From Pantoea rwandensis (GTDB taxonomy: Bacteria > Pseudomonadota > Gammaproteobacteria > Enterobacterales > Enterobacteriaceae), in NCBI RefSeq assembly GCF_002095475.1, contig NZ_MLFR01000009.1, positions 1 to 64,000 on the forward strand: a stretch of DNA of 64,000 bases, in the 5' to 3' direction. A program made the position numbers and the translations under genes. Below, in pieces: positions 1 to 34,041 of the stretch. The notes beneath the pieces are model-generated. The model did not search any database. It was not told the origin of the DNA and saw only the letters and a list, made by a program, of their open reading frames with translations. The stretch's first letter is position 1; every line of letters begins with the position of its first letter.

Positions 1-44
1 AAATCGTTTCATACGATAGGCACTGAAGAATGATTTCCAGATGT

Positions 45-120
<76 letters not shown>

Positions 121-186
121 AATCTCTGTTCATCCTGAACAATAGTAAAAATTCAAAACCCGAAAGATATCGAGATATTCCGCATT

Positions 187-393
187 GCGTGATGAATCGC
201 GCCATTACCGCTTCGTGCGCGCTGAGAGTGCTTATTCCGTCGAGATACCCCGCCTCACGTGCTTAATTGCGCGATGAATCGCGCCGCTACCGCTTCGTGC
301 GCGCTGAGAGTGCTTATTCCATCGAGATACCCCGCCTCACGTGCTTAATTGCGCGATGAATCGCGCCGCTACCGCTCTGTGCGCACGATTGTC
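187..393. repeat. 82-bp tandem repeat, about 2.5 copies
   Basis: Units begin at 187, 269 and 351, an exact 82-bp period; the third copy breaks down after about 35 bases. Copies 1 and 2 differ at only a few positions. Each unit opens with the near-palindrome GCGCGAT-GA-ATCGCGC (GCGTGAT in copy 1), able to form a short hairpin, and contains CCGCCTCACGTGCTTAATT. The stretch 121-443 between the tRNA and the rhodanese gene holds nothing else I can support: no plausible coding frame. It looks like a REP-type palindromic element amplified in tandem. Confidence 0.85.
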
Positions 394-443
394 AAACCCG
401 CACAAGCTTGTAACGGCGCAATTTATTGCGCACTGAGCAGCAC

Positions 444-2060
444 TCAAGCCATTGCGGTTGGCACTTGCGCAGGCAGCACGCGGAAACCATGGGTTCCATC
501 GCGATCCAACTGCGCCACCAAACCATATTCCCAATCCAGATAGGCTTGCATCACACCGGGTTCGATATCTGTGCCTTCATAGGGGCGGCGATAACGGTCA
601 ATCGCAGGTGACAGCAACTGTTGTTCGCCTTGCTCAGTTGGCAGCTTAGCCGCGCGCCAGGCAGCATTACCACCTTCTAGCACAAATACCGGTTTACCGG
701 TAAGCTCCGCCACCTGCTCCACGGCATAACCGGCCAGCAGGCTACTCCCACAGGTCAGCACATAGCGTCGCGCTTCAGGCAGTACGGCTTTACCTTGCTG
801 TTGCAACGTTGAGCGCAACAACCAACCCGCGCCGGGAATATGGTTGTTGAGGTGGTTGGCTCGAGTCGTAAAGTCCAGCACTTGCGTCTGTCCCTCCGCC
901 AGCCATTCTGCGAGCTGCTGTGGTGAGATAAATTCCGGCTGTGCAACCGGGGGCACCTTGGCTTTCCAGTTGCCGGTTGCACTGAAGTCACCCAACTGTA
1001 ACTCTTCTAACACCGAAACCTGCCAGCCCAACTGGGCCAGCCAGGAAGCTGTCATGTTGGCGCGCACGCCATCGTCATCCACTAGCACAATACGTGCGCC
1101 GCGTACGCTGGCGTAGTGGTCGGTTTCCTGTACCAGCTGTCCGCCGGGTACGTGACGGCTGCCTGGCAACTGACCCGCGACGTACTCTTCGGCATCCCGC
1201 ACATCAAACAGATAGGTAGTGCGCGGCTCCTGCTGCCAGCGTTTCAGGGTTGCCAATGGAATACGCTCCACACCAGCACGATCGGCGATGTTGCGTGCAT
1301 TATTGGCCGCCTGGCGCTGCGCCGTTTCACTGGTTTCACCGTAGCGACGTGACTGGCCATGGTCCAACGGGTGGCCCGCCAGCGTCCAGCCAATAGTGCC
1401 GTTGCGCAGGGCAAAAACCGGGTTGCGAATCCCGGCATTCACCAGCGATTGCGTACCGATAATGCTGCGCGTCCGTCCTGCGCAGTTCACAATCACGGTG
1501 GTTTCTGGCGAGGGGGCAAGGTCACGCACGCGCAATACCAATTCACCACCGGGTACACTGGTGGCACTTGGAATGCTCATGGTCTGGTACTCATCAAAAC
1601 GGCGGGCATCCAGTACTACCACGTTTGCGTCACTGTTGATGAGATGCTGCACTTCATCGGCGGACAGTGAAGGGGTGTGATTGTGATGTTCAACCAATTC
1701 ACCAAAGGCTTTGCTCGGTGAATTCACATCAATAAACAGTTCGCCACCTGCTGCTTGCCAACCGGTTAAGTCATCTTTCAGCAGCGCGACATTGCGGTAG
1801 CCGAGTGCAGCGAAACGCTCTGAAGCAGCCTGCGCTAACCCTTCGTCATTGTCATAGATCGTGATCGCTGTGCTCTGCTGAGGGATGCGATCCAGCAGCT
1901 CCAGCTCCAGTTTAGAAAGTGGAATATTGACCGCAAACAACGGATGGCCGGTGGCAAACAACGCTTCGTCACGCACATCAACAATGGCCACTTCCTGCTG
2001 CTGACGCAGTGCCTCAAGAATGTCCGCAGCCTGGCGGAAAGGGAAAACGGGTTTACTCAT
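444..2060 (-). CDS. four-domain rhodanese (thiosulfate sulfurtransferase-like)
   Basis: A 538-residue protein made of four tandem rhodanese folds, a cytosolic persulfide or sulfur-transfer protein. Domain 2 has the active loop CAGRTRS with Cys193; domain 4 has a Cys in the loop TCGSSLL near residue 440. In domains 1 and 3 the loop Cys is replaced by acidic residues (YDNDEG near 70, VDDDGV near 350), so these are probably inactive structural domains. The start ATG at 2058-2060 lies inside the last codons of the upstream dioxygenase gene (8-bp overlap), indicating translational coupling; an in-frame ATG further upstream would add 21 unlikely residues. It is the last gene of a four-gene organosulfur operon, so it probably handles the sulfane or sulfite sulfur released there. 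The natural sulfur donor cannot be read from sequence. Confidence 0.88.
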   Translation of the reverse strand: MSKPVFPFRQAADILEALRQQQEVAIVDVRDEALFATGHPLFAVNIPLSKLELELLDRIPQQSTAITIYDNDEGLAQAASERFAALGYRNVALLKDDLTGWQAAGGELFIDVNSPSKAFGELVEHHNHTPSLSADEVQHLINSDANVVVLDARRFDEYQTMSIPSATSVPGGELVLRVRDLAPSPETTVIVNCAGRTRSIIGTQSLVNAGIRNPVFALRNGTIGWTLAGHPLDHGQSRRYGETSETAQRQAANNARNIADRAGVERIPLATLKRWQQEPRTTYLFDVRDAEEYVAGQLPGSRHVPGGQLVQETDHYASVRGARIVLVDDDGVRANMTASWLAQLGWQVSVLEELQLGDFSATGNWKAKVPPVAQPEFISPQQLAEWLAEGQTQVLDFTTRANHLNNHIPGAGWLLRSTLQQQGKAVLPEARRYVLTCGSSLLAGYAVEQVAELTGKPVFVLEGGNAAWRAAKLPTEQGEQQLLSPAIDRYRRPYEGTDIEPGVMQAYLDWEYGLVAQLDRDGTHGFRVLPAQVPTAMA

Positions 2061-2643
2061 GTGATAGATCCCAAATGTTCGGTAAGTAACGGTTGCTGTA
2101 ACCGGAGATAAACTGTTTTTCACTGCCGTCTTCGCGATACACCGCGCGTTTTACCGCGCCAATATTGGCGCCATACACGTGGATGCTGATCGAGACGCGA
2201 TCGTCATAGGCATTGCTGACACGATGGATATCGCCGACGGTGGGCGAGACGGCTTCAACGCTGCCGGGATCGAGACGCACCGGAGCGCCTTCCGGCTGCA
2301 GGCCGTGCGGCCCCGGCTGCCAGGATTGTGATATTTCCGCCCCGCGCAACATGCCAATCAAACCCCACACGCGATGGTCGTGAATCGGCGTTTGCTGGCC
2401 CGGCCCCCAAACGAAGCTCACTACGGAAAAGCGCTGCTGGGCATCGGCGTAAAGCAGATATTGTTGATAATGTTCGGGGTGCGGCTGGGTATAGGCTTCA
2501 TCGAGCCAGTCGTCATACTGGATCAAGTCGGCCAGCCAAGCACTGCCCTGTTCTAAAACAGTCGCTTCATCGGGATTCTTGTCGAGTAACGTAGCCAGAT
2601 TAGCGACAAAATCGCGTAAACGCTGATGCTGATAGACACTCAT
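2053..2643 (-). CDS. cysteine dioxygenase-family thiol dioxygenase (cupin)
   Basis: A 196-residue mononuclear non-heme iron dioxygenase that adds O2 to a thiol to give a sulfinate. The iron ligands are visible as His88 and His90 (motif PIHDH) and His140. A Ser153-x-His155-x-Tyr157 triad is present, as in characterised thiol dioxygenases. Near residues 60-64, where mammalian cysteine dioxygenase has the carboxylate-binding Arg, this protein reads HYQQYLL, which fits the Gln-type branch that includes 3-mercaptopropionate dioxygenases; the substrate may therefore not be cysteine (inference). Its start overlaps the binding-protein stop as ATGA, and its end overlaps the rhodanese start, so all three are co-translated. 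Confidence 0.88.
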   Translation of the reverse strand: MSVYQHQRLRDFVANLATLLDKNPDEATVLEQGSAWLADLIQYDDWLDEAYTQPHPEHYQQYLLYADAQQRFSVVSFVWGPGQQTPIHDHRVWGLIGMLRGAEISQSWQPGPHGLQPEGAPVRLDPGSVEAVSPTVGDIHRVSNAYDDRVSISIHVYGANIGAVKRAVYREDGSEKQFISGYSNRYLPNIWDLSHE

Positions 2644-3623
2644 GATTTATCTCCCGGCGCGCTTTTGGCGACCTGATTGGCCTGAGCAGACAAACTAAAA
2701 TCAAAGGCTTTGCTGACATCAATCGCCTTTGGCAATACCTGATAGCGATGGAAGAAGTCGGCAGATTTTTGCAGCGTAGGGATCAGGTTGGCATCAAACA
2801 CCAGCGGACGAATGCGTGCATCGGCAATCCAGCTACTGGTGATGTTGGTAGGCATATTCAGTGTCTTGCCTAACACGCTGGCAAATTCCTGTGGATGTTG
2901 CTGCGCCCATATTTGTGCTTTCGCCAGGCGTGCTAACAGGTCGGCAATGGCTTTACGTTTACCGGCATCACTCAACGCCTCGTCACGTGCCAGCGCATAC
3001 GAATAACCGGACATAATGCCTTTGCCACCGCCGTCCGGGACGCGCACCGTGCCATCCACTGCGGTAGAGGTAGCGATGTAGGGCTCCCAAGGTGCCCAAG
3101 CGGATACCGCTCCTGACGTTAGCGCGGCATGGCCATCCACCGGGCCCAGGAAGCGCATTGTGACGTCATCAGGCTTTAACCCGGCGCGTTCCAGCAGACC
3201 TAGCAGCAGATAATGTCCCCAGCCACCTCTATTCACCGCGATCTGCTTGCCTTTCAAATCTTGCAAACGATGAATACCAGCGTTGGGCCGCGTGAGCAGG
3301 GCAATACTGTCAGGGTTATTCTGCCAAGCCCCCACGGCCTTGACGGGGGCGCCAGCAGCAAATACAAACAGGAATGGCAGATCGCCCGTGAAGCCAACGT
3401 CGAGCGCACCGGCATTTAACGCCTCTTGCACAGGTGCACCTGAGTCAAATGCAGTGAGTTTGAGATCGTAAGGCAGGTTGTTAAGTTCGCCAGAGGCCTT
3501 TAATGCAGCAAAACGATCGCCTTTAACATCGCCCAAACGCAGCGTGACTTTATCGGCGGCAAAAAGCGGATTGAGCGTGGAGAGCGCCAGCGCAACACCG
3601 GTAAACAGTGCAGCCAGACGCAT
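2640..3623 (-). CDS. sulfonate-type ABC transporter substrate-binding protein
   Basis: A 327-residue periplasmic solute-binding protein of the SsuA/TauA (NMT1-like) family. The N-terminus MRLAALFTGVALALS followed by NPLFA-AD is a Sec signal peptide cleaved after about residue 22. The mature part carries the family features: a GDVKGDRF-type beginning, then KGKQIAVNRGGWGHYLLLGLL near the hinge and SAWAPWEPYI in the second lobe. Family members bind alkanesulfonates, taurine or similar organosulfur anions. It sits between the monooxygenase gene (the two genes share base 3623) and the dioxygenase gene (ATGA overlap). No permease or ATPase gene is nearby, so it must borrow a transporter encoded elsewhere or do something other than import. 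Confidence 0.85.
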   Translation of the reverse strand: MRLAALFTGVALALSTLNPLFAADKVTLRLGDVKGDRFAALKASGELNNLPYDLKLTAFDSGAPVQEALNAGALDVGFTGDLPFLFVFAAGAPVKAVGAWQNNPDSIALLTRPNAGIHRLQDLKGKQIAVNRGGWGHYLLLGLLERAGLKPDDVTMRFLGPVDGHAALTSGAVSAWAPWEPYIATSTAVDGTVRVPDGGGKGIMSGYSYALARDEALSDAGKRKAIADLLARLAKAQIWAQQHPQEFASVLGKTLNMPTNITSSWIADARIRPLVFDANLIPTLQKSADFFHRYQVLPKAIDVSKAFDFSLSAQANQVAKSAPGDKS

Positions 3624-4712
3624 CAGGCGCTCCTTTTTTCAGTGACGTCCAGCGCAGCCACTTTTTCACGCGTCAGTGGGATCAGCTCCTGACCATATTC
3701 CACCGCATCATTCAGCGGATCGAAGCCGCGAATCAATACGCTGTGAATGCCGAGGCGATAGTATTCCAACAGCGCGTCGGAAACCTGGTCGGCGGTTCCT
3801 ACTAGCGCGGTGGAGTTGTAGCCGCCTTGCACCAGCTTAGCGACACCGGTCCATAACACTTTGTCCAAACGATCGCCTTCATTGGCGGCCGCCAGCAGAC
3901 GCTGCGCTCCGACGCTTTGCGGCTTGGGTTTGCCAAAAGCAAAACCGGTCTCTTGCAGTTGCTTTTCGGCCAGTTCACGGATGTGCTCGGCGCGCTCCCA
4001 AGCTTCTTTCTCGGTTTTACCGATGATCGGACGGAACGAGATATTGAAATCAATTTCACGCCCGTGCTGAGCCGCAGCGGCTCGCACGTTGCGCACCGTC
4101 TCTTCCGCGCCTTTCAGCGGTTCGCCCCACAAAGCAAACACATCGGCATGACGGGCAGCCACATCAATCGCTTCCTGTGACGATCCGCCAAAATAGACCG
4201 GCAGTTTGTTCTGTACGGGCTTGATGGCAGAAAACGCCTGCTCAGCCTGGTAAAAGTTTCCCTTATGATCATAAGGCTGGCTGGATTCCAGACTCTGCCT
4301 GAGCACGGTGAGGAATTCGTCGCTGCGCGCGTAGCGTTCAGCCTTATTGAGGAAATCGCCATCGCGGCGCTGCTCGACATCGCTGCCACCACTGATGATA
4401 TGCACCGCCAGACGACCGTCGGTGAGATGATCGAGTGAGGCCAGCTTGCGTGCTGCCAGCGTAGGGGAGACAAAGCCTGGACGGTGTGCCAGCAGGAATT
4501 TCAGTTTGGAAGTGTGTGCCGCCGCATGCGCGGTGACCAGGAATCCATCCGGCTGATCGGACCAATAACCCACCAGAATGCGGTCAAATCCCGCTTCTTC
4601 ATGGGCGCGGGAAAAAACGCGCGATGTAGTCTTTATCGAACAGCGGACCGCTAGCCGGGATAATCTCGGAAGCCAGACGGTGGCCAATCATGCCAAGAAA
4701 TTGAATGCTCAT
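3623..4712 (-). pseudogene. LLM-class flavin-dependent monooxygenase (SsuD-like), frameshifted near its start
   Basis: First gene of the organosulfur operon. Family members use FMNH2 and O2 to cleave C-S bonds of alkanesulfonates or sulfones. Translation from ATG 4710-4712, with an AGATTCTCC-complement Shine-Dalgarno (GGAG), gives MSIQFLGMIGHRLASEI and continues to about residue 33, IARF, then hits a stop. The rest (SRAHEEAGFDRILVG onward) is in another frame. Removing one base from the run of six A at 4612-4617 (plus strand) restores a continuous protein of 362 residues, the normal family length, with GGSSQEAIDVAARHADVFALWGE-type flavin-binding features. All other codons look intact, so this is either a recent mutation, a slippery phase-variable tract or a sequencing error. 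Without repair, only a start further inside could be used. Confidence 0.8.
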
Positions 4713-4879
4713 ACGATTCTCCAGATGTGACGTTATGGAGAAAAACTACGGGCGCAGGCAACCGTGACGGAAATTCAATATTGTGCAAAGGTTTTGCGAA
4801 TGTTGGGGAAGCAGCGGATGACGGGGGAACTATGGGGTTGAACGCGAGATAGAACAGAAAGGCATAAATAAGAAGAGAA

Positions 4880-4899
4880 GGGCGAGCCGCAGCTCGCCC
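4880..4899 (-). terminator. terminator of nupC
   Basis: Perfect hairpin GGGCGAGC-CGCA-GCTCGCCC six bases past the nupC stop. Read on the minus strand, the stem is followed by the T-rich stretch TTCTCTTCTTATTT. The T tract is interrupted, so termination efficiency is uncertain. Confidence 0.65.
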
Positions 4900-4905
4900 G
4901 GTACA

Positions 4906-6096
4906 TCAGAAGGCCAGAACCAGACCGGCGATAGCAGCAGAGAGCACGCTCACCAGGGTTGAACCGTACAGCAGTTTCAGGCCGAAGCGCGAAACCACGT
5001 TACCCTGTTCTTCGTTCAAGCCCTTAATCGCACCTGCCACAATCCCGATTGAAGAGAAGTTCGCGAAAGAGACGAGGAACACAGACAGGATACCTTCCGC
5101 ATGTGGAGAGAGCTGACCGGCAATTTTCTGCAGGTCCATCATCGCCACGAATTCGTTTGAAACCAGCTTGGTCGCCATGATACTGCCCACCTGCAGCGCT
5201 TCGCTGGACGGTACGCCCATCACCCACGCAAACGGATAGAACACATAACCGAGCACACCCTGGAAGCTGATGCCGAAGATCAGGTCAAACAGCGCATTCA
5301 GGCCGGAAATCAAGGCGATAAAACCAATCAGCATAGCGGCAACAATGATCGCCACTTTGAAACCGGCGAGGATGTATTCACCCAGCATTTCGAAGAAGCT
5401 CTGACCCTTGTGCAGATCCTGCAACTGCAGATCTTCTTCGCTATCGACGCGGTAAGGGTTAATCAGTGACAACACGATAAAGGTGCTGAACATGTTCAAT
5501 ACCAGCGCAGCCACCACGTACTTCGGTTGCAGCATGGTCATATAGGCGCCCACGATGGACATCGAAACCGTCGACATCGCCGTAGCGGCCATGGTGTACA
5601 TACGACGCTGAGACATTTTGCCGAGAATATCTTTATACGCGATGAAGTTTTCTGACTGTCCCAAAATCAGAGAGCTCACGGCATTAAAGGATTCCAGCTT
5701 GCCCATTCCGTTCACTTTTGACAGCACGGTACCGATGCCGCGGATAACCCAAGGCAGGATACGGAAATGCTGCAAAATACCGATCAGGGCCGAGATGAAC
5801 ACAATCGGGCACAGAACATTAAGGAAGAAGAAGGCCAGGCCTTTCTCACTCATGTTGCCAAACACGAAGTTGGTGCCTTCGGCGGCGTACTTGAGCAGAT
5901 GGTCAAACACCCCCGCAAACCCTTTCACGAAGCCGAGGCCCGCTTCAGAGTTAAGGAAGAACCACGCCAGCAGAACTTCAATCACCAGAAGCTGGACGAT
6001 ATAGCGAATGCGAATGCTTTTACGATCGTGACTGACCAGTAAGGCCAGTGCGGCTACCACCACTAATGCCAAAAGAAAGTGCAAAATATGGGACAT
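4906..6096 (-). CDS. nupC: nucleoside permease NupC
   Basis: A 396-residue inner-membrane concentrative nucleoside transporter (CNT family) importing pyrimidine and some purine nucleosides with protons. The sequence matches E. coli NupC almost end to end from memory, including the diagnostic stretches [46 protein letters not shown] and [20 protein letters not shown]. Many hydrophobic segments span the whole length. Length is close to the E. coli protein (400). It is transcribed away from mntH; the 368-bp gap holds a CRP-like site and a palindrome that could serve its promoter, as nupC is known to be CRP/CytR-controlled in E. coli. Confidence 0.97.
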
Positions 6097-6142
6097 GTCG
6101 GCTCCAAATTTGAGGAGGGTTGTATTTTGTTGCGTATTCTAT

Positions 6143-6180
6143 GTAACGCGTTACTTAAAAACGAGATCAAAACCACATTA
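6143..6180 (-). promoter_or_regulatory. nupC upstream control region: 12-bp palindrome and CRP-like site
   Basis: GTAACGCGTTAC at 6143-6154 is a perfect palindrome. Adjacent, on the minus strand at 6159-6180, TGTGG-N6-TCTCG resembles the CRP consensus TGTGA-N6-TCACA (one good half, one weak half). A GTTGCGTA stretch just left (about 6130-6137) resembles a CytR half-site. E. coli nupC is activated by CRP and repressed by CytR, so the arrangement is plausible, but none of these sites is strong on its own. The rest of 6097-6332 is AT-rich with nothing I recognise. Confidence 0.4.
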
Positions 6181-6332
6181 TAAGTATTCGATATCGACTA
6201 ATTTCTAAGAAAAGTCTTACCGCTCACAACCTGTTCACAAACTCTTCACAAGAAATATCCACAAAAACATTGTCTATAAAATAACCCAAGAGTAGAGTGA
6301 TTCCTGTTGCAAACATTTTGGCAAGATCTGGC

Positions 6333-6362
6333 TTTACCGCAAGATATAGCAATGGCTATACT
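6333..6362 (+). promoter_or_regulatory. predicted mntH promoter
   Basis: TTTACC at 6333-6338 and TATACT at 6357-6362 are separated by 18 bp, a fair sigma-70 match. The MntR palindrome covers the spacer and the -10, which is the expected geometry for repression. Confidence 0.5.
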
Positions 6363-6363
6363 T
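6341..6363. promoter_or_regulatory. MntR operator of mntH
   Basis: An imperfect palindrome reading AAGATATAGC-AAT-GGCTATACTT, a near match to the enterobacterial MntR box (AACATAGC-AAA-GGCTATGTT). It lies about 100 bp upstream of the mntH start and overlaps the -10 of the predicted promoter, consistent with manganese-dependent repression. Confidence 0.8.
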
Positions 6364-6464
6364 CATAGCACCATCTATTAATACGATAACTAAAATCGAA
6401 TTCACTTGCCTTGGTGGCTCTGTATTCTGTACGGGTCAACAAGCGTTAGGACAGGGTCCACACT

Positions 6465-7706
6465 ATGTCAGAAAGCCGCACCGCTGAGCGCGCCGCTCGC
6501 GGAGCCAGAAAGATTAAACTCGCGCTGCTCGGCCCTGCCTTCATCGCGGCGATTGGCTACATCGATCCCGGTAACTTTGCCACCAATATTCAGGCAGGTG
6601 CGGCCTACGGCTACAAGCTGCTTTGGGTGGTGGTCTGGGCCAACGTGATGGCGATGCTGATTCAGCTCATGTCCGCCAAACTAGGGATTGCTACCGGCAA
6701 AAATCTTGCCGAGCATATCCGCGATCGTTTTCCACGTCCTGCCGTATGGTTCTATTGGGTGCAGGCTGAAATCATTGCTATGGCGACCGATCTCGCTGAA
6801 TTCATTGGTGCGGCGCTGGGGTTCAAGTTGTTGCTCGGCATATCGCTGCTACAAGGTGCAGTGTTAACTGGGGTAGCCACTTACCTGATTTTGATGTTGC
6901 AAAACCGCGGGCAGAAACCGTTGGAGCTGGTGATCGGTGGGCTACTGCTGTTTGTGGCGGCAGCCTATATTGTTGAGCTGTTTTTCTCACAGCCAAAAGT
7001 GAGTGAACTGGTCACTGGCATGGCGCTGCCTTCACTGCCTTCATCAGATGCGGTGTTTCTGGCTGCCGGTGTACTGGGTGCCACCATTATGCCGCATGTG
7101 ATTTACCTGCACTCAGCGTTGACGCAACACGGCAACATTGGCAGCAAAGCGGATCGCTATTCATCTACCAAACTGGATGTGGCGATTGCCATGACCATCG
7201 CGGGTTTTGTGAATTTGGCGATGATGGCGACGGCGGCGGCGGCTTTCCACTTTAGCGGTCATACCAGCATTGTGGATCTCGATCAGGCTTATTTGACGCT
7301 GCAACCGCTACTCGGCCATGCGGCAGCAATCGTGTTTGGTTTGAGCCTCGTTGCCGCAGGTTTGTCATCTACCGTAGTCGGTACTTTGGCAGGGCAGGTG
7401 GTGATGCAGGGCTTTATTCGCTTCCATATCCCGCTGTGGCTGCGTCGCACCATCACTATGCTGCCTTCCTTTATCGTGATCTGGGCCGGTTGGGATCCGA
7501 CGCGCATTCTGGTGATGAGCCAGGTGCTACTCAGCTTTGGTATCGCGCTGGCGTTGATTCCGTTGCTTGCCTTTACCGGCAATCGTGAATTGATGGGCGA
7601 TGAGATGGTGAATTCACGCCTGATGCAGAACGCCGGTCGTCTGATTGTGGTGTTGGTGGTGGCGCTAAATCTCTATTTGCTGGTGGGTGAAGCGCTCGGC
7701 TGGTAA
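6465..7706 (+). CDS. mntH: manganese/divalent metal:proton symporter MntH (Nramp)
   Basis: A 413-residue Nramp-family inner-membrane importer of Mn2+ (and Fe2+). The two metal-site signatures are present: DPGN at residues 34-37 in the first transmembrane helix, and MPH in [13 protein letters not shown] in helix 6. Eleven or so hydrophobic segments are spread along the chain, and the length equals the E. coli protein (412). An ATG with an AGGGTCC-type weak Shine-Dalgarno starts it. Its promoter carries an MntR box, and a strong hairpin terminator follows 30 bp past the stop. The nupC-mntH-ypeC order is the E. coli order. Confidence 0.97.
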
Positions 7707-31605: not shown

Positions 31606-32087
31606 ATATTCGTCGTCGTAACCGCCTGTATGTGGTGGTAGCGATTTTGGTCGGCTTAGGCTTGGCCACAACGCTGGTGATGTACGCACTGCGTTCCAAC
31701 ATCGATCTGTTTTACACCCCGAGTGAAATTCTTTACGGCAAAGGCGAGGCGCATCAGATGCCTGAAACCGGGCAGCGTTTGCGCGTTGGCGGCATGGTCA
31801 TGCCGGGCAGCGTGAAGCGTGATCCGAAAACCTTGGCAGTATCTTTCAAATTGTATGATGCCAATGGCGTGATCAGCGTGAGTTATGAAGGCATCCTGCC
31901 GGACCTGTTCCGTGAAGGGCAGGGCGTTGTCGCGCAAGGCGTACTGGAAGACGGTAACCTGGTGAACGCCAAAGAAGTGCTGGCCAAGCATGATGAAAAA
32001 TACACGCCGCCAGAAATTGAAGATGCGATGAAGCAAAACCATAAAGGACCTGCAGCCGCTTATCAGCAGGCAGGTGCACAATCATGA
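31602..32087 (+). CDS. ccmE: periplasmic heme chaperone CcmE
   Basis: A 161-residue, membrane-anchored periplasmic OB-fold protein. It binds heme covalently through His130 in the motif VLAKHDEKY with Tyr134, identical in position to E. coli CcmE. One N-terminal helix ([20 protein letters not shown]). The start is GTG at 31602, overlapping the ccmD stop as GTGA; there is no ATG nearby that gives the conserved [10 protein letters not shown]-terminus. Confidence 0.95.
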
Positions 32088-34041
32088 TTCCAGAAATTGG
32101 TAGCTTTTTATTGTGTCTGGCGCTGGGATTGTCGCTGCTGTTAAGTGTCTACCCGCTGTGGGGCGCAGCCCGTCAGGATGCACGTTTGATGGCAATGGCA
32201 CGTCCGCTGGCGTGGGGCATGTTTGCCTGTATCGCCGCCGCTTTCCTGGTGTTAGTCCATGCCTTTATCGTCAACGACTTCACCGTGGGCTACGTCGCCA
32301 CTAACTCCAACACTCTGCTGCCGGTTTACTACCGTATTGCAGCAACCTGGGGCGCACACGAGGGTTCATTGCTGCTGTGGGTGCTGCTGCTCAGCACCTG
32401 GACAGTGGCGGTAGCGATTTTCAGTCGCAGTATGCCGCAAGATGCGTTGGCACGGGTGTTAGCTGTAATGGGGATGATTAACCTTGGCTTCTTGCTGTTT
32501 ATCGTCCTGACTTCAAATCCATTCACTCGCACTCTGCCCAACTTCCCGATTGATGGTAGCGACCTGAATCCGATGCTGCAGGATATTGGTCTGATTTTCC
32601 ATCCACCTTTGCTGTATATGGGATACGTTGGTTTCTCGGTCGCGTTCGCCTTTGCCATTGCGTCATTGATGGCGGGACGTCTGGATACCGCGTGGGCCCG
32701 CTGGTCACGCCCCTGGACCACTGCTGCATGGGTGTTCCTGACGATTGGTATCGTGCTCGGCTCGGCTTGGGCCTATTACGAACTTGGCTGGGGTGGCTGG
32801 TGGTTCTGGGATCCGGTCGAAAATGCGTCCTTCATGCCATGGCTGGCCGGTACGGCGCTGATGCACTCGCTGGCCGTGACGGAAAAACGCGGCAGTTTCA
32901 AATCCTGGACGGTACTGCTGGCGATTACGGCCTTCTCGCTCAGCCTGTTGGGCACCTTCCTGGTGCGTTCCGGCGTGCTGGTCTCTGTGCACTCATTTGC
33001 CTCCGACCCGGCACGTGGCATGTTCATCCTTGCCTTCCTGGTGATTGTGATTGGTAGCTCGTTGCTGCTCTACGCCCTGAAAGGCGGCAAGGTGCGCAGC
33101 CGAGTACAAAGCGAAATCTGGTCGCGCGAATCCTTCCTGCTGGGCAACAATGTTCTGCTGATTGCTGCGATGTTGGTGGTGTTGCTCGGGACGTTGTTGC
33201 CACTGGTTCACAAGCAGCTTGGACTGGGTAGCATTTCAGTCGGTGAACCGTTCTTCAACACCATGTTTACTTGGTTAATGGCACCTTTTGCCTGATGCTG
33301 GGCATTGGACCGCTGGTGCGCTGGCGTCGTGATGAGCCACAAAAATTGTGGAAACGTCTTGGCGTGGGCCTGCTGGTCACTTTGATCCTGTCAATCGCGC
33401 TGCCTTGGCTGCTGCAGGATCGCATTGAGGCGATGACGGTCATCGGTCTGCTGATGGCGATTTGGGTGATTCTGTTGACGCTGATGGAACTGCACGAACG
33501 CGCCACGCATCGTCATAGTTTCTTTAAAGGTCTGCGCCATCTGACGCGCAGCCACTGGGGCATGGTGCTGGGGCATCTCGGTGTGGCCGTGACCGTGGTC
33601 GGCATCGCCTTTAGCACACAATACAGTGTAGAGCGCGATGTGCGTATGAAGTCGGGCGATACCGTTGACATCCACAACTATCATTTCATTTTCCGTGATG
33701 TCCATAACCTGCAAGGGCCCAACTACAGCGGCGGTGTAGCGATTATCGACGTCACCCGCAACGGTAAACCTGAAGCGGTACTGCATGCAGAAAAACGCTT
33801 CTACACCGCGGCGCGTACCATGATGACAGAAGCGGCGATCAGTGGCGGATTCACCCGAGATCTCTACGCAGCGCTCGGTGAAGAGCTGGATGATGGTTCA
33901 TGGGCCGTGCGCATTTACTATAAACCGTTTGTTCGCTGGATATGGTTCGGCGGGGTCTTTATGGCGGTGGGCGGCCTGTTCTGTCTGTTCGACCCGCGCT
34001 ACCGCTCGCGCAAAAAAGCGCAGCGGGAGGAGCTGGCATGA
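32084..34041 (+). pseudogene. ccmF: cytochrome c heme lyase subunit CcmF, frameshifted
   Basis: CcmF is the large membrane subunit of heme lyase, with a WWD motif. The first part (32084-33295, 403 codons) contains [19 protein letters not shown] and ends ...FTWLMAPFA, then a stop. The remaining protein continues at once in the next frame ([20 protein letters not shown] to 34041). Adding one C in the GCC-TGATG stretch at 33290-33295 restores the expected APFALMLGIG, giving 652 residues (E. coli 647). The genes before and after are intact, and CcmF is essential for c-type cytochromes, so a single-base sequencing loss is the simplest explanation; a real mutation would abolish cytochrome c maturation. 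Confidence 0.87.

Follow-up and report, generated by a model that had tools for sequence, protein, structure and literature searches.

The closest described relative of the system considered here is the 3mdo-tst gene pair of Pseudomonas protegens, homologous to PA2602-PA2603 of Pseudomonas aeruginosa, which forms an apparent transcription unit acting on 3-mercaptopropionic acid (3-MPA) (PMC12947264). Homologues of both genes, adjacent and alike over their full length, occur in a 64,000-nucleotide stretch of DNA (the window) that starts at base 1 of contig NZ_MLFR01000009.1 in the 5.8 Mb assembly of Pantoea rwandensis. In this plant-associated bacterium they belong to a minus-strand unit of four genes in the order LLM (luciferase-like monooxygenase), SBP (periplasmic binding protein), MDO (thiol dioxygenase) and RHO (four-domain rhodanese), which points away from a nucleoside-transporter-like gene that we take to be nupC. 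The MDO-RHO pair is thus already known and the four-gene unit is a variant of it; in the window LLM and SBP stand upstream of the pair and overlap, whereas in the Pseudomonas loci examined they are separate, divergent or undetected. The original prediction from the window, that the organosulfur compound handled by these genes had yet to be assigned, is not supported in the light of the P. protegens pair. It is proposed, at a probability of roughly 0.5, that the four genes constitute a sulfur-scavenging operon centred on 3-MPA, which LLM makes and MDO oxidises.

The 3-MPA dioxygenase of Azotobacter vinelandii (Av3MDO), reported as structures 6XB9/7KOV, is marked as Gln-type by Gln63 and holds the substrate carboxylate with Arg168, according to the sections of the report on the active site (PMC8050391). 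The window enzyme, compared by sequence alone, resembles it in being of the Gln-type and in its iron ligands, Ser-His-Tyr motif and relocated arginine. The mercaptosuccinate dioxygenase clusters of Variovorax B4 and Advenella also group a thiol dioxygenase with a rhodanese, in Advenella together with an ATP-binding cassette (ABC) transporter and a LysR gene; they differ in using another member of the dioxygenase family and in including a cystathionine beta-lyase, and the relevant sections of the report name no LLM there (PMC5373536). The same sections describe the Mdo-Acd catabolic cluster of Advenella, serving growth on 3-MPA as a carbon source, which likewise has a 3-MPA dioxygenase but adjoins a coenzyme A (CoA) transferase and a desulfinase, neither of which is among the four genes of the window (PMC5373536). 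The SsuEADCB/MsuD proteins of Escherichia coli resemble the upstream genes in that SBP belongs to the SsuA family and LLM is 38% identical to SsuD, but LLM scores below the SsuD cut-off and lacks the sulfonate-binding arginines, and SBP stands in a clade of its own.

MDO is strongly implied by homology to be a Gln-type 3-mercaptopropionate dioxygenase that converts 3-MPA to 3-sulfinopropionate. Its closest solved relatives are 6XB9/7KOV (3e-89), 4QMA (6e-82), 3USS/4TLF (9e-82) and 4WVZ (1.4e-80); 3USS/4TLF and 4WVZ carry the name 3-mercaptopropionate dioxygenase, and 6XB9 and 4QMA the label cysteine dioxygenase type I. Presumably 4TLF and 4WVZ are PA2602 and the rhodanese structure 1YT8 is PA2603, and we take the nearby PA2598-PA2600 to be sulfonate-type genes. 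The iron ligands His88, His90 and His140, the triad Ser153-His155-Tyr157 and Gln61 in place of arginine, all of which had been read from the window before, are shared by all 108 aligned rows, a set that contains near-duplicates. Gln61 occupies the position of Arg60 in cysteine dioxygenase and of Gln63 in Av3MDO, and Arg166, present in 107 of the 108 rows, sits where Av3MDO has Arg168; judged by these positions, the predicted carboxylate-binding arginine is relocated and not lost. A cysteine dioxygenase is ruled out by the Gln-type residues and by a score of 20.9 bits against Pfam PF05995 (cysteine dioxygenase type I), which is below the gathering cut-off of 23. The match to cysteine dioxygenase 9T7V has an E value of 0.0063, and a PF05995 search of the whole genome gave no match at E 0.001. 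Mercaptosuccinate dioxygenase is also ruled out, as the match to 8VNI reaches just 1e-6. The Gln-type sequence supports the earlier suggestion that the substrate would be a mercapto acid in preference to cysteine.

RHO contains four rhodanese stretches, and its alignment with 1YT8, a four-domain protein of solved structure, extends from end to end (residues 8-529 to 8-529, E 1.5e-217). In the 85 of 94 homologues kept after a length filter, C193 of domain 2 is present in all 85 and C437 of domain 4 in 83, and acidic loops replace the cysteine in domains 1 and 3, with a single row having a cysteine in domain 3. The cysteines that the original prediction described as lost are indeed absent from domains 1 and 3, but this is nothing unusual: the alignment shows that members of the family normally have two Cys-less domains. 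In P. protegens, deletion of tst leaves the 3-MPA level without significant change (PMC12947264, section 3.4).

LLM is read as a separate SsuD-like subfamily. Its nearest match in the PDB is MsuD (7JV3, 5.1e-58), and it fails both the SsuD model TIGR03565 (233.5 bits for the window gene and 239.3 for the intact gene of L001, cut-off 518.2) and TIGR04021 for the dimethylsulfone monooxygenase SfnG (149.8 bits, cut-off 382.95). An orthologue of SsuD is rejected, the SsuD (contig C10) and MsuD-like protein (C5) of the same genome being other proteins, 83% and 64% identical to E. coli SsuD. In MsuD, R225, R296 and W195 are each essential for activity and the arginines bind the sulfonate, as stated in the part of the report that treats these residues (PMC8234197). 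Among 73 of 75 LLM rows used, which include near-duplicates, W195 is kept in all 73, the R225 position is Ser in all 73, and none has Arg in the R296 column, where a two-residue insertion in the loop makes the assignment less certain; the three controls (E. coli SsuD and the SsuD and MsuD-like proteins of the same genome) keep all three residues. The C-terminal tail of SsuD is missing from LLM. Its substrate would probably be something other than a plain alkanesulfonate; S-dealkylation of a 3-MPA derivative would be consistent with this and has a precedent among flavin enzymes (PMC10863075).

The kinship of LLM with MsuD and SsuD and of SBP with SsuA could also place the monooxygenase downstream of MDO, such that 3-sulfinopropionate would be oxidised to 3-sulfopropionate, at some loci by a flavoenzyme of the acyl-CoA-dehydrogenase fold, and LLM would release sulfite as SsuD does. 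A gene of that fold lies in the flanks of 23 of the 63 RHO-type loci counted below, and the lost arginines might be replaced by an Arg two residues past R225 in all 73 rows and by another a few residues further in the R296 loop in 23 of the 73. This order of steps is rather doubtful given the residues changed throughout LLM and kept in the controls, the absent tail and the low SsuD score. Furthermore, the protein of this flavoenzyme fold that was compared is far closer to 5Z8T/5GJ7 (8.5e-57) than to the methanesulfinate monooxygenase 6U76 (2e-9), and the Pantoea operon has no such gene.

The LLM gene of the window is interrupted, which was overlooked when it was predicted as a single open frame. 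The frame that begins with the ATG at 4712 has 37 codons before a TGA, and the remainder is open solely in another frame, its open reading frame (3623-4687) starting at TTG. The intact orthologue of a relative (G021) aligns in two frames joining at 4614/4615, where a T run differs in length by one base, and unbroken copies are present in relatives. Of the G021 proteins 150 residues or longer, 48 were compared with the window: 46 aligned in one piece and two were split, namely LLM and an NrfE/CcmF-family heme lyase (32084-34038), whose gene is broken near 33,291 by a one-base difference beside a T run. Because this unrelated gene bears a similar break, the frameshift in LLM is likely to be a homopolymer sequencing error in the assembly.

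The frameshift would otherwise point to an operon decaying in this strain, with LLM a true pseudogene and SBP a relic. SBP is indeed missing from four MDO-positive genomes of the genus, and genes of the operon are broken in Pantoea rodasii (L011, MDO near its end), Candidatus Pantoea haifensis (L014, LLM) and Candidatus Pantoea persica (L015, SBP and RHO). However, the second break suggests sequencing error, and the ratio of nonsynonymous to synonymous substitution (dN/dS) between the window and its relatives is about 0.02-0.08 for all four genes, LLM being measured downstream of its break; these ratios are rough, as the synonymous term often exceeds 1 per pair and one SBP pair and one MDO pair were uncomputable. 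The median is lowest for SBP (0.043), followed by LLM (0.057), MDO (0.063) and RHO (0.073). Decay is thus very improbable.

SBP lies well above the TIGR01728 (SsuA family) cut-off of 163.5 bits. The prediction that it stands without a permease or ATPase was confirmed, with no permease in the fetched flank (at most 8 kb, in some cases shorter) at any of the 16 Pantoea-clade loci. In three MDO-positive genomes of the genus g123 (L137, L143 and L144) the order is LLM-SBP-SBP2-SsuC-SsuB-MDO-RHO, and in L144 SsuC scores 457.5 bits (NCBIfam cut-off 347) and SsuB 428.7 (cut-off 395). In a tree that lost three rows, the binding proteins of the window and of g123 fall together in a clade with support 100, whose 20 rows include near-duplicates; E. 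coli SsuA and the other SsuA-type proteins of the P. rwandensis genome that were entered lie outside it. The absent transporter is likely explained by the SsuC and SsuB genes inside this orthologous operon together with a separate ssuEADCB operon on contig C10 of the P. rwandensis genome. It is inferred that SBP is a retained working part that would use, in trans, SsuBC encoded elsewhere, and the four genes may be one version of a larger unit that encodes SsuCB itself. The trees leave the direction unsettled between loss of SBP2-SsuC-SsuB in the four-gene form and their insertion in g123. The seven-gene operon of g123 encodes a single SsuCB pair and two SsuA-type binding proteins that differ from each other, which suggests that one importer serves both.

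SBP follows MDO within the genus. MDO is present in 20 of 36 genus genomes. With E values up to 1e-80, an SBP orthologue occurs in 16 of the 36, all of them among the 20 MDO-positive genomes and none among the 16 MDO-negative ones. Four loci without SBP (L003, L005, L006 and L008; one clade, support 91) have the order LLM-MDO-RHO at the same nupC-mntH site, and SBP is also missing from L014, where LLM is broken. From this arrangement the SBP-less Pantoea-type loci read as cases of SBP loss. Across wider samples, loci with LLM, SBP and RHO have no permease in the fetched flank at 29 of 33 loci in the contig scan described below and at 8 of 15 in the family of the window; a permease profile and blast references gave similar results for the former (4/33 vs 3/33).

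A scan of contigs for MDO, confined to close relatives, gave 116 loci of which the best 80 were kept, and their neighbours were counted with blast references at a floor of 100 bits (200 for LLM); 15 of the 80 have short flanks and the counts are lower bounds. RHO lies near MDO at 63 of the 80 loci and is adjacent on the same strand at 61, a test that can miss loci with RHO in several pieces. Loci with RHO have an LLM-type gene in 45 of 63 cases and an SsuA-type SBP in 42, against none of 17 for either at loci without RHO, a contrast weaker than it appears given that the RHO-less loci are more distant, that five of the 17 are short-flanked and that the neighbour references came from RHO-type loci. 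In the MDO tree the RHO label changes four times compared with 15.9 times when shuffled, so that it follows descent, though the split is not clean. RHO-less loci of Variovorax (L072) and Pollutimonas (L063) have genes for CoA-transferase, CoA-ligase or enoyl-CoA hydratase beside MDO, neighbourhoods that by analogy would fit the carbon route of Advenella. In the family of the window, MDO was found in 29 of 392 genomes and 14 of 154 genera, and 20 of these 29 loci were examined: RHO is present at all 20 (adjacent on the same strand at 19), LLM at 16 and SBP at 15. The organosulfur role foreseen in the original prediction is supported by the way SsuA- and SsuD-type neighbours track the MDO-RHO pair.

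The four-gene set recurs beyond this strain, as had been anticipated, in Pantoea and relatives beside nupC, with variants in g123. The overlaps of 1-8 bp reported earlier amount to 1 bp for LLM/SBP, 4 bp for SBP/MDO and 8 bp for MDO/RHO, and the same junction spacing is found in close relatives. Among named relatives, Pantoea sp. alder81, Erwinia sp. S63 and one record bearing the label Enterobacter cancerogenus M004 come nearest at the locus. A blastn search of 20,395 E. coli records with window positions 2056-4700 gave no match. Other arrangements include LysR-MDO-RHO with a nearby ABC importer or tripartite tricarboxylate transporter in Klebsiella and Sodalis records, and LLM-aldolase-MDO-RHO-LysR-SBP on a Paraburkholderia plasmid record. 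In one genome of the family (L134:2552-4949) an NtaA/DmoA-family monooxygenase of 435 residues stands beside an SsuA-type binding protein near MDO, and a luciferase-like monooxygenase of equal length, 435 residues, has the same place in P. putida (L017:5296-7675).

The neighbours of MDO also bear on the idea that the genes serve to remove 3-MPA, a reactive thiol of endogenous or environmental origin, and not to gain sulfur, the surrounding sulfur genes being incidental. P. protegens CHA0 releases 3-MPA and deletion of 3mdo raises its level (PMC12947264, section 3.4), in agreement with such a role. Disposal is nevertheless unlikely, since the genes overlap with SBP and LLM, neither of which was found near the RHO-less loci, and SBP is strongly conserved.

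In the proposed scavenging operon, SBP would capture an anionic organosulfur compound and pass it to an SsuBC importer encoded elsewhere. LLM, supplied with reduced flavin mononucleotide (FMNH2) by a reductase such as SsuE, may then cleave the S-alkyl bond of a 3-MPA derivative to yield 3-MPA or its sulfinate, candidate substrates being 3-(alkylthio)- or 3-(alkylsulfonyl)propionate. MDO would oxidise 3-MPA to 3-sulfinopropionate, as its homology strongly implies, sulfite would be released in a further step, and RHO may carry or trade sulfane sulfur or sulfite. A more far-reaching version is offered tentatively: that the LLM genes beside MDO are a new C-S-cleaving subfamily freeing 3-MPA or its sulfinate from S-alkyl propionates, that the operon is a complete undescribed route of sulfur assimilation, and that SBP docks on a shared SsuBC in trans. 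A limited search of the open literature gave no description of the four-gene unit, of the related seven-gene operon that includes SsuCB, of the co-inheritance of SBP or of the altered LLM subfamily, and found the dioxygenase-rhodanese pair treated in the P. protegens report alone; the main text of PMC9765439 lacks the term PA2603.

Several points weigh against the scavenging operon. The sulfite-releasing step has no named enzyme, the LLM gene is broken in the present assembly, and the arginines close to the lost ones might take their place. SBP is lacking in 4 of the 20 MDO-positive genomes of the genus. Of the 36 genus genomes, 34 have an SsuC above the cut-off, every one of the 16 SBP-bearing genomes among them; being near-universal, its presence is permissive and tests little. 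The absence of LLM and SBP from the RHO-less loci is subject to the reservations given above, the close relative 4QMA is labelled a cysteine dioxygenase, and no regulator gene lies within the Pantoea operon. P. protegens produces 3-MPA itself (PMC12947264), the main text of an open paper on sulfur starvation in P. aeruginosa does not mention PA259x/PA260x, and BsrA binds near PA2602, a link that is not sulfur-specific in the part of the source consulted.

A stretch upstream of LLM, conserved in an alignment of 13 Pantoea-clade sequences, is probably a promoter or operator (Table 1). Among RNA elements searched for in window positions 1-6500, tRNA alone reaches the gathering score. Between RHO and the tRNA-Ala at the contig end, positions 184-384 consist of an 82-bp unit repeated head to tail in two copies and a 37-base part, and short pieces of this unit occur at 19 other listed places in the genome.

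Table 1. Features of the four-gene locus, in window coordinates.
Feature	Position	Strand	Basis
RHO, four-domain rhodanese, 538 residues; Cys193 in domain 2 and Cys437 in domain 4, the other two domains (1 and 3) Cys-less	444..2060	-	ATG at 2060; 1YT8 alignment
MDO, Gln-type thiol dioxygenase, predicted 3-mercaptopropionate dioxygenase, 196 residues (Gln61, His88, His90, His140, Ser153, His155, Tyr157, Arg166)	2053..2643	-	Solved relatives and aligned rows
SBP, SsuA-family periplasmic binding protein, 327 residues, no adjoining permease or ATPase	2640..3623	-	TIGR01728, 227.7 bits
LLM, SsuD/MsuD-like FMN-dependent monooxygenase (luciferase-like), frameshifted near 4614, intact in relatives	3623..4712	-	Open reading frames and orthologue comparison
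Conserved stretch upstream of LLM, putative promoter/operator	about 4738..4798	-	Alignment, 13 Pantoea-clade sequences

For the 3-MPA dioxygenases, which are well studied as enzymes, the questions are where their substrate comes from and why a rhodanese accompanies them. The census divides a setting of rhodanese and sulfonate-type genes from the rhodanese-less loci and points to LLM as a conserved partner enzyme whose active site is altered. The origin of 3-MPA in the physiology of pseudomonads, burkholderias and enterobacteria thereby becomes testable.

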